Source: an uncultured Paracoccaceae bacterium
GTDB taxonomy: Bacteria; Pseudomonadota; Alphaproteobacteria; Rhodobacterales; Rhodobacteraceae
Assembly (NCBI GenBank): GCA_913061275.1
Contig: CAJXSR010000002.1
Coordinates: 1 to 64,000, forward strand
Direction: 5' to 3'
Length of the DNA: 64,000 bases
Positions 61,292-63,566 of the stretch are shown in pieces; within the stretch, counting starts at the first letter, position 1, and every line of letters starts with the position of its first letter. A program made the translations under genes and the position numbers. The notes beneath the pieces are model-generated. The model did no database searches, had not been told where the DNA came from, and saw only the letters and a program-made list of their open reading frames with translations.

Positions 61292-62048
61292 CCACATCCT
61301 CGGCTTTGATAATCGCTACCCGCGCGCCGTCCGCATCCAGTTCAACCACACCCGTATCATCCACAAACACCACCGATATAGCCCCGCCATAAGCGGCACC
61401 GGTATCGATGTTAATGCGGTTGCCGTAGTCAGTCACTTGATCCACAATCGTATGCCCGTGGATAACCAGCTTGCCAAAGCTTTCCGTGTGCTCAAAGAAC
61501 GGGCCGCGTATCCAAACCAGATCATCTTCGGTCTGGTCAGCCATAGCCACATTGGGGCGAATACCTGCATGCACAAAGATGTACTTTTCGGTTTCCACAT
61601 AAGTTGGCAAGTTGCGGATAAATTCCAGATGTGTGGGCGGAATGGCAGGCAATGCCAGTTTATGTATGTCGTGTTTGTCCATATCATCTGGATAGGTAAC
61701 CCCATATGACTCTAACGTTTCACGCCCGCCAATACGGTGATAAAGCCAGCTATAGCCAGGTTTAAGGTGGCTGTCTGGGCGATCAGGATCTTCCATAAAC
61801 CAGTGCATCATTCGGTCATGATTACCCTTTAGCACAACCCACGGCTTGCCAGCGGTAACCCCCGCCATCAGATGCTCAATCACACCTTTGCTGTCTTCAC
61901 GCCGATCCACCAGATCACCGATATGGATGACGGTGTAATCACTGACGCCATGCTTGGCAGCATCCGCAGTGATGCGATCTTGCACTTCAATCAATTTTAT
62001 AAGGTCGCCGTGGATGTCGCTGATAGCATAGATAGGTGTTTGGATCAT
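61281..62048 (-). CDS. Metallophosphoesterase (Ser/Thr phosphatase-like)
   Basis: 255 residues. Two-metal motifs: DIHGD (about 11-15), GDLVDR (about 44-49), GNHDR (about 75-79), and late histidines in FVHAG and IHGHT. Similar to bacterial PP2A-like and Ap4A-type phosphatases. Substrate unknown. The end overlaps the nitrilase gene by 11 bases. Confidence 0.92.
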   Translation of the reverse strand: MIQTPIYAISDIHGDLIKLIEVQDRITADAAKHGVSDYTVIHIGDLVDRREDSKGVIEHLMAGVTAGKPWVVLKGNHDRMMHWFMEDPDRPDSHLKPGYSWLYHRIGGRETLESYGVTYPDDMDKHDIHKLALPAIPPTHLEFIRNLPTYVETEKYIFVHAGIRPNVAMADQTEDDLVWIRGPFFEHTESFGKLVIHGHTIVDQVTDYGNRINIDTGAAYGGAISVVFVDDTGVVELDADGARVAIIKAEDVASS

Positions 62049-62177
62049 TTTTGGGCCGTAGTTTGCTTCGTATCTGATGGTTTTAGGCCATACTTTGCCA
62101 AACGAAAAGCCCCCGTGTTATATTTTGCTACAGTAAATTGAAACGATAGGATTATTGCATTAAAAAATATTGTGTAT

Positions 62178-62208
62178 GGGGCTAACACTCTCCCGAAATG
62201 TTAGCCCC
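62178..62208 (-). terminator. Terminator-like hairpin of the small RNA
   Basis: GGGGCTAACA (62178-62187) pairs with TGTTAGCCCC (62199-62208) in a ten-pair stem. On the minus strand, T-rich sequence follows nine bases later. The loop reads TTTCGGGAGAG on that strand, containing GGGAG complementary to the CCUCCC motifs upstream. Confidence 0.65.
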
Positions 62209-62290
62209 AAATGTCAACGGGATCTGGGAGGATTGACCGCTAACGTGCGATGTTGGACTGTCTCTGGGAGGATCGAGCAACAACATCAGC
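62178..62290 (-). ncRNA. Probable CcsR/cuckoo-type anti-Shine-Dalgarno small RNA
   Basis: On the minus strand after the DUF1127 gene: hairpin A, arms GATGTTG and CAACATC (62249-62287), loop with AUCCUCCCAGA (CCUCCC at 62266-62271); hairpin B, arms GTCAA and TTGAC (62213-62237), loop with AUCCUCCCAGA (CCUCCC at 62226-62231); and a ten-pair terminator-like hairpin (62178-62208). CCUCCC can bind ribosome sites. In Rhodobacter the CcsR RNAs with such loops follow a DUF1127 gene, so this is likely a homologue; its exact ends are not known. Confidence 0.72.
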
Positions 62291-62357
62291 AATAGTTTCG
62301 ACAGGCAAGCTGGCGTTTTATTTTATGGACATAAAATTTGATTTATGTTTTCGGGCA

Positions 62358-62624
62358 TTACAACCCATCATATTCATATTTAATAAGTGATTCAGCGTGG
62401 CGTTTGATGTCTTTTCTGGAAAGGCCAACCTTATTTAATTGATAGTCAGACATTGAATTCAAAGCCGAAGATAATCGGTTAATTTTGAATTGCATAAATG
62501 ATTTTGATGAGCTTGATTTTACTACGTTTCCAAGTTTTGTTATCAAAGTAAGGGCGCTATTTAATATTTGTTGTGCGTGTGATGATAAATCTAACGGGGT
62601 GTAATCAAAGCTGCTTATTTCCAT
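62358..62624 (-). CDS. DUF1127 domain small protein
   Basis: 88 residues. The C-terminal pattern LNSMSDYQLNKVGLSRKDIK is the DUF1127 signature (LSD.QL..IGL.R.DI), an RNA-binding-like motif in other members. Helical N-terminal part. AGGA lies nine bases before the ATG. It precedes hairpins with anti-Shine-Dalgarno loops on the same strand, the arrangement of CcaF1 and CcsR in Rhodobacter. Confidence 0.82.
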   Translation of the reverse strand: MEISSFDYTPLDLSSHAQQILNSALTLITKLGNVVKSSSSKSFMQFKINRLSSALNSMSDYQLNKVGLSRKDIKRHAESLIKYEYDGL

Positions 62625-62837
62625 TTAATCAATCCTTTGATTATCTCTCTGATACGAGCTTTTACTAAAAAGACACATAGGACAATGGTGTTTACCTATT
62701 ACAATGGATATCATTCAAAACAAATGATAAAATGCCACTTATTTATACTATTTGCTATAAATATGAGCAAAAAATCTATACCAACGTTACCGCAGATCGT
62801 CATATAAAATTGTCAAATTTTACTTGAATGCCTGCAA

Positions 62838-63566
62838 TTAAACACTTTCATTAGCGTTCATAATGACAGGCATCTGAAACTTCCACTTGTTCCAAAGCTT
62901 TGGCTTCTCAATTAGCTCTATCATGAAATGGGCAACATTAGATCGCGTTGTCGGGCGACCAGTAAAAATACCCGTAGAGGGGGACGCACTGATTTCATAG
63001 GGCGATACTTCGGCATTGATTAGCGTGTCTGGACGGACAGCGCACCATTCAATGTGCTTGTTCTTTATTCCCACAACCTGATGTAGATGTTCAGCGGCAG
63101 TTTCGTTGTCTCGGTGCGGTGGTATCGTGTAACGCAAGATTGTAAGCAGCAACCTTTCAAACCAGCGTCTTTGCGCGTCAATATTGGGGTTTGGTACTCC
63201 AACCGTGTTCATAAGGATGAATTTTGTAGGTTTGGAAGCGTTATTTTTCCTAATTGCCATGCACAAGCGTCGCACCGCATCAGTGCATAAATTTCTAGGA
63301 TTTCCAAACATGCCGTTGAAATCCAAGTTATGACCCAAGCAAGATACAACTGCATCACAACCTTCCACATGTGTTGCCATTTCCGCGTCACTTAAATCTA
63401 GAATAGCCGCTTCAATGATCTTTGCATTTGGATTTTCCAATATTTCTGCAGAGAGTTTATGAGGGGATCGGACAATAATGCGAACCTTGTGATTTTTACG
63501 CAGCAACTGTTCTACCAACGGTTGCCCCGTATTGCCCGTGGCCCCAAGTACTAATGTGGTTGTCAA
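62838..63566 (-). CDS. NmrA-like NAD(P)-binding oxidoreductase
   Basis: 242 residues. Rossmann start VLGATGNTGQPLVEQLLRKN (about 6-25), then GCDAVVSCLGHN and a long helical region; no Tyr-x3-Lys active site is apparent, as in NmrA/DUF2867-type proteins. AAGGA precedes the ATG. Function unknown; upstream of DUF1127 on the same strand with a 213-base gap. Confidence 0.88.
   Translation of the reverse strand: MTTTLVLGATGNTGQPLVEQLLRKNHKVRIIVRSPHKLSAEILENPNAKIIEAAILDLSDAEMATHVEGCDAVVSCLGHNLDFNGMFGNPRNLCTDAVRRLCMAIRKNNASKPTKFILMNTVGVPNPNIDAQRRWFERLLLTILRYTIPPHRDNETAAEHLHQVVGIKNKHIEWCAVRPDTLINAEVSPYEISASPSTGIFTGRPTTRSNVAHFMIELIEKPKLWNKWKFQMPVIMNANESV

Follow-up and report, generated by a model that had tools for sequence, protein, structure and literature searches.

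Layout of the locus

The window is the whole 64,000-nt stretch of DNA analyzed here (G000:C2:1-64000, genome G000). Comparisons were made mainly with G017 and G032, two genomes of the same genus, Amylibacter (Paracoccaceae). The original prediction placed a DUF1127 gene on the minus strand, followed by two hairpins with CCUCCC in their loops. This arrangement was borne out, although the gene is a divergent one with a sub-threshold Pfam match. The features of the locus, in 5' to 3' order of the minus strand, are as follows:

62678..62699, minus strand: conserved leader block, ATAGGTAAA-N5-TTGNCCTA-like, common to the window, G017, G032 and a paralogue on contig C27
62358..62624, minus strand: divergent DUF1127 gene of 88 aa, stop codon included (Pfam E 0.02, below the cut-off; orthologues present)
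62329..62348, minus strand: small A/U-rich stem-loop directly 3' of the stop codon (from the fold and an alignment gap)
62249..62287, minus strand: hairpin 1, loop region CGAUCCUCCCAGA, CCUCCC at 62271-62266
62213..62244, minus strand: hairpin 2, loop region CAAUCCUCCCAGAUC, CCUCCC at 62231-62226
62178..62208, minus strand: hairpin 3, 10-pair stem, loop UUUCGGGAGAG, GGGAG at 62194-62190
62162..62167, minus strand: U6 run (T6 in DNA), beginning 10 nt past the hairpin 3 stem

The upstream neighbour of the 88-aa ORF on the minus strand is an NAD(P)H-binding protein gene. Downstream, 70 nt separate the ORF from hairpin 1 on the same strand, and UCCUCCCAGA is found in the loop regions of both hairpins 1 and 2. 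The stretch with the A/U-rich stem-loop is absent from both relatives. The leader block, in which G032 has one base different in ATAGGTCA, is possibly a promoter or a regulator site. A sigma-70 consensus promoter scan returned promoter-like sites at chance level.

The adjoining DUF1127 protein

The Pfam DUF1127 model matched residues 54-73 of the 88-aa protein with an E-value of 0.02 and 15.0 bits (cut-off 23.3). All six proteins of alignment A1 matched DUF1127 at E≤1, the best at 1.9e-5. In G031, G015 and G004 a canonical DUF1127 protein (42.0, 43.7 and 41.8 bits, respectively) is followed by a sub-cut-off one (17.5, 19.2 and 19.6 bits) and then by a hairpin array; the window protein resembles this divergent DUF1127 kind, which adjoins the RNA in other species. 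A near-copy of the first 55 residues of the window protein was also observed at G000:C27:3-167 (L019), 75% identical and preceded by a leader that is likewise similar. It lies at a contig edge, where the assembly ends ahead of any RNA region.

Folding of the RNA block and exposure of the CCUCCC loops

The 11-mer ATCCTCCCAGA occurs exactly twice in the 64-kb window, at 62273-62263 and 62233-62223 on the minus strand, 40 nt apart. With up to one mismatch allowed there were four matches in 64 kb vs. 0.50 expected, a number reached by none of 100 shuffles. Across the G000 genome, CCTCCCAGA was found at 13 sites, compared with one for the control pattern read backwards. For the 117-nt block 62293-62177 the folding energy is -46.8 kcal/mol, with a z-score of -5.47, and none of 200 shuffles folded equally well; the equivalent blocks of G017 and G032 gave z-scores of -5.69 and -5.19.

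The claim that CCUCCC lies in the loops was upheld, with both copies of ATCCTCCCAGA placed within hairpin loop regions and the core exposed. In the computed fold of hairpin 1, all six CCUCCC bases are unpaired with a probability of at least 0.95 and the trailing GA is paired. In hairpin 2 the last five bases, CUCCC, are unpaired at no less than 0.99, and a small inner helix is formed by the trailing GA(U) with the first C (unpaired 0.09) and the preceding U (0.08). Since the loop-flanking bases of both hairpins are paired, the exposed part is the core and not the entire 11-mer. Both window loops hold UCCUCCC; in hairpin 1 the two relatives, G017 and G032, have GCUCCUCCC, and hairpin 3 holds GGGAG. 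The motif of the rhizobial RNAs, also the one expected in every hairpin of the cuckoo family, is CCUCCUCCC.

Conservation and covariation of the stems

The RNA block was found at the same place in both relatives, with a DNA identity of 85% in G017 (positions 178-293 of the 306-nt query) and 82% in G032 (positions 184-293). The identity of the DUF1127 proteins is lower, at 63 and 51%, respectively. Similarity 3' of hairpin 3 is slight in the alignment of the window, G017 and G032. A dispersed repeat or small coding gene was considered as an alternative to a regulatory RNA and is most improbable. Stems of this strength are typical of dispersed repeats, and a 47-aa, GTG-started frame opens inside GGGAGAGTG. 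However, the DNA matches at E<0.05 in G000, G017 and G032 comprised only the window place and the orthologous places, both relatives have GTA in place of this GTG, and alignment gaps break the frames.

Between the window and its relatives, two pairs of stem 3 differ at both bases (UA to CG in each case), and hairpin 2 has two one-sided changes with pairing maintained. In hairpin 1 a U-A pair of the window corresponds to a C.C mismatch in both relatives. Taken by themselves, the three orthologues give weak covariation, the paired percentage being reached by 17 and the covariation score by 43 of 500 shuffles. A larger set was available in nine type-2 hairpins from six genomes of the genus, chosen from 16 distinct CCTCCCAGATNCCG segments (from 24 places). 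L058, L062, L063, L074, L076 and L078, which have no adjoining DUF1127 gene among the matches listed, were left out, as was L065, which has an adjoining DUF1127 gene and a one-base register shift. The register of hairpin 1 in covariance model R1, with 28.6% of the cells of that helix paired, was rejected and model R2 was used instead.

In the nine hairpins 91.7% of cells were paired vs. 75.0% (sd 3.2) after shuffling, a value somewhat favoured because the hairpins were picked with pairing already visible. There were 11 doubly changed cells vs. 3.8 (sd 1.5), and the covariation score was 0.465 vs. 0.191; none of 500 shuffles reached any of these three values, in a test that related sequences can pass without any structure. 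The other two of the five measures were unexceptional (double-change pairs, 46/500; further pair types, 198/500). Structures slid along the same nine sequences were paired at 50.0% or less. The comparison of stems across related genomes, suggested earlier as a check, thus gave compensating changes around a fixed loop. The opposite pattern of unconserved stems with freely varying loops was not seen in the type-2 hairpins or in the two congeners.

This comparison also bears on whether the hairpins serve only to stabilize the DUF1127 mRNA at its 3' end, with CCUCCC loops that have no action on other mRNAs. Such a role would need stems, which are indeed kept, and hairpin 3 is strong. It would not require a fixed loop, yet the anti-Shine-Dalgarno (aSD) loop is fixed while the stems vary and is common to many loci with different stems. 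We therefore regard stabilization alone as unlikely.

The third hairpin and its GGGAG loop

Hairpin 3 had been described as a strong terminator hairpin. Its strength was confirmed, since it folds alone at -21.3 kcal/mol with its 10-pair stem (14 pairs in the best fold). The terminator part was not borne out: an intrinsic terminator has a U-tract adjoining the stable hairpin, here the T6 run starts 10 nt further on, and a terminator scan of 62000-62860 detected no minus-strand site.

The CGGGAGAG of loop 3 is identical in 3/3 orthologues, which represent one event in a block that is 92% identical by column. The GGGAG within it is complementary over five bases to the CUCCC loops of the same RNA (-11.5 and -10.0 kcal/mol, calculated for free strands). 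In the best fold GGGA is unpaired at a probability of 1.0 and the final G is paired within the extended stem, which would therefore have to open for five-base pairing. The last hairpin of the other cuckoo loci examined carries CCUCC(U)CCC or another sequence.

In a survey of 29 loci, collected by hand and not a random sample, GGGAG was present in 10 (three of the window type and 7/8 of the G045 type) and absent in 19; the two G045 loci have a second GGGAG further downstream. The reversed control GAGGG occurred 12 times, in 5/29 loci and mostly in repeated array stems. GGGAG also occurred 12 times, so that enrichment is not shown by the count alone. The fixed position of GGGAG within each group suggests a role. 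In 7/8 cuckoo loci of another genus group (L016, L020, L162, L163, L167, L168 and L178) a middle hairpin with ACAGGGAGCGCC, which is sense Shine-Dalgarno-like, stands between two aSD hairpins. Under the decoy explanation given below, this second GGGAG case would suggest that self-complementary aSD arrays arose twice. A small-ORF reading of hairpin 3 was discarded, its GTG start not being kept in the relatives, and one of the middle GGGAG hairpin of the other genera was not supported, with ATG in some and ACG in others.

A tentative and rather doubtful explanation is that hairpin 3 acts as a built-in decoy, its RBS-mimicking GGGAG pairing with the CUCCC loops of the same RNA or with those of the sister RNAs on contigs C25 and C40. 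The RNA would then be kept locked, dimerized or quenched until displaced by a stronger target. If the GGGAG loop is functional, a very general anti-RBS RNA could be held in check by itself.

Sister loci and distribution

Judged by their sequences, three loci of the cuckoo type are present in the G000 genome: the window locus, one on C25 and one on C40. The C25 locus contains two DUF1127 genes followed by CTCGCTCCTCCCAGAG. In the C40 locus (L025, G000:C40:12490-13001) a DUF1127 gene is flanked on either side by CCTCCC hairpins, five in total; two of the five have long, terminator-like stems with T-runs after them. L025-like loci are present in G017, G032 and G024; the window-type RNA was not found in G024. 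DUF1127 genes adjoin other hairpin arrays of the genus as well. Long arrays with a period of about 92-94 nt were observed 3' of two DUF1127 genes in G031:C1 (L153), G004:C31 (L152) and G015:C6 (L151), where two hairpin types, with CCTCCCAGAT and CCTCCTCCC loops, alternate.

Model R2 gave weaker matches in other genera, with 10 of 394 family genomes matched at E≤0.05, including the window's own. Among the other R2-matched loci that were examined, 9/10 have aSD hairpins and one (L169) does not. The pattern CCTCCC..GGGAGAG, run over 148 genomes, produced many chance matches, and the reversed controls were similarly large in numerous genomes. Its matches in G000, G017 and G032 have the hairpin sequence of the window, and those in G004, G015, G022 and G024 are unlike it. 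The hairpin 1 pattern (10/394 genomes) and the loop-pair pattern (3/296) are too narrow for counting the cuckoo loci of the family.

Candidate targets

We examined where the complement of the loop, TCTGGGAGGA, occurs in G000, G017, G032 and G024. There are 16 sites vs. two for the reversed control, and six of the 16 are cuckoo loops read on the other strand. Seven of the ten non-cuckoo sites lie 2-31 nt before start codons, six of them those of solute-binding-protein genes, counts to be read with the caveat that GGGAGGA is a natural ribosome-binding sequence. These genes encode DctP-type TRAP solute-binding proteins in G017, G032, G024 (twice) and G000, and a Peripla_BP_6 protein in G000; the seventh site precedes a CoxG protein gene in G024. 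Of the three remaining sites, L202 has no ORF of at least 40 aa in its vicinity, and L200 and L206 lie within genes. G024, where the window-type RNA was not found, has the same TCTGGGAGGA leaders, which are therefore not tied to the window RNA alone. For the 9-mer TCTGGGAGG in the window genome, 3/10 non-cuckoo sites are in initiation regions, among them one 8 nt before the TTG start of a Sulf_transp gene, and 7/10 are in or against open frames.

Duplexes of the two loops with window-genome leaders were calculated at -15.4 to -26.4 kcal/mol (pairing alone, with the cost of opening excluded). The leader of the Peripla_BP_6 gene (L205, G000:C28 near 8657) was seen to have two GGGAGGA sites, one at the RBS position and the other some 31 nt ahead of the start codon, so that one mRNA could take both loops of the RNA. 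The TRAP and ABC solute-binding proteins make up a short list of candidate targets that can be tested.

The loops may instead act mainly in cis. Here UCAAUCCU of hairpin 2 (62236-62229) would pair with the ribosome-binding site of its own DUF1127 gene, AGGAUUGA (62636-62629), and limit its translation. The two minus-strand segments are complementary over eight bases, with -13.0 kcal/mol for the best duplex, and G017 retains seven of these bases as judged by eye (CAATCCT with AGGATTG). Four of the eight bases are however the usual Shine-Dalgarno match, G032 has AGGAGCGA at this place and has lost the match to hairpin 2, and the duplex is weaker than those with the transporter leaders. A mainly cis-acting function is thus very unlikely.

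Proposed mechanism

What was seen directly is the gene order, the presence of three hairpins, stems that co-vary beneath constant CCUCCC loops, and the conservation in two congeners. We propose, with a probability of roughly 0.8, that a small RNA of the cuckoo/CcsR type is encoded here, derived from the 3' UTR of the DUF1127 mRNA, and that its loops would block mainly transporter mRNAs. By analogy with R. sphaeroides and S. meliloti, the transcript would be cut between the gene and hairpin 1, probably by RNase E. The freed RNA would pair via its UCCUCCCAGA loops with ribosome-binding sites of the UCUGGGAGGA type and so block translation, mainly that of transporter solute-binding proteins. Maturation of the RNA may be aided by the DUF1127 protein, in the way that CcaF1 acts in R. 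sphaeroides.

Comparison with known systems

The cuckoo RNA family and its CIN1 locus were reportedly described by Reinkensmeier and Giegerich in 2015. A search of the entire window against Rfam gave no match at the gathering score, so the library of family models offered no confirmation. With E-values up to 10, the region 62050-62840 gave three matches, all to snoRNA families; each scored far short of its cut-off, and none overlapped the hairpins. The original assignment to the cuckoo/CcsR RNAs is nevertheless supported by the DUF1127-like gene upstream, the paired aSD loops, the co-varying stems around a fixed loop and the orthologues in two congeners. On the sequence evidence, this RNA locus of the cuckoo type is real and conserved, and it adds a new member to a known RNA family.

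The statements on known systems below follow the accessible portions of the papers cited. The ar14 family, represented by NfeR1 of Sinorhizobium meliloti, resembles the window RNA in having aSD-loop hairpins with variable stems. The main predicted targets of NfeR1 are transport mRNAs (PMC7143759), and the candidate targets here are likewise mostly solute-binding-protein genes; NfeR1 silences ntrB via its aSD loops (PMC10746234). Unlike the window RNA, ar14/NfeR1 has three CCUCCUCCC loops and its own sigma-70 promoter, and a link to DUF1127 is not mentioned in those portions of the text. Against the ar14 pattern of three hairpins with CCUCCUCCC in each, the window RNA has two CCUCCC loops and one with GGGAG.

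In Rhodobacter sphaeroides, the CcsR RNAs derive from the 3' UTR of ccaF1 (PMC8625941) and target the FlhR mRNA (PMC8307010). The window locus is like CcsR1-4 in having an RNA unit with two aSD stem loops 3' of a DUF1127 gene. Further features of CcsR are co-transcription with the DUF1127 gene, RNase E maturation and an RpoHI/RpoHII promoter; in the window, gene and RNA lie close together on one strand and the leader holds a conserved block. It differs in comprising one unit where CcsR has four, in a divergent DUF1127 protein that falls below the Pfam cut-off, and in a U-tract that stands apart from the last stem. A single pair of loops had been put forward as a new feature, but RSs0680a already consists of two stem loops with an aSD motif in each (PMC3927594), and this point of novelty was withdrawn.

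A likeness in layout is also shared with the cuckoo motif itself, which consists of two to four hairpins whose helices are free to vary around a constant loop (PMC4504443), and with the CIN1 locus, where a short DUF1127 gene adjoins the RNA (PMC10253847). The window RNA has two aSD hairpins plus a third, and in the nine type-2 hairpins one loop is common to stems that co-vary. A short DUF1127 gene lies beside it on the same strand, identified from the sub-threshold Pfam match together with the relatives. It departs from these loci, as far as they are described in those papers, in its loop core CCUCCC and in hairpin 3, which carries a sense GGGAG and no aSD loop. We found no paper on Amylibacter small RNAs in the open-access literature, and the window locus may be in the 2015 cuckoo list. 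The arrangement of a DUF1127 gene with a cuckoo-type RNA is extended here to the marine genus Amylibacter, with orthologues and, in one genome, three loci.
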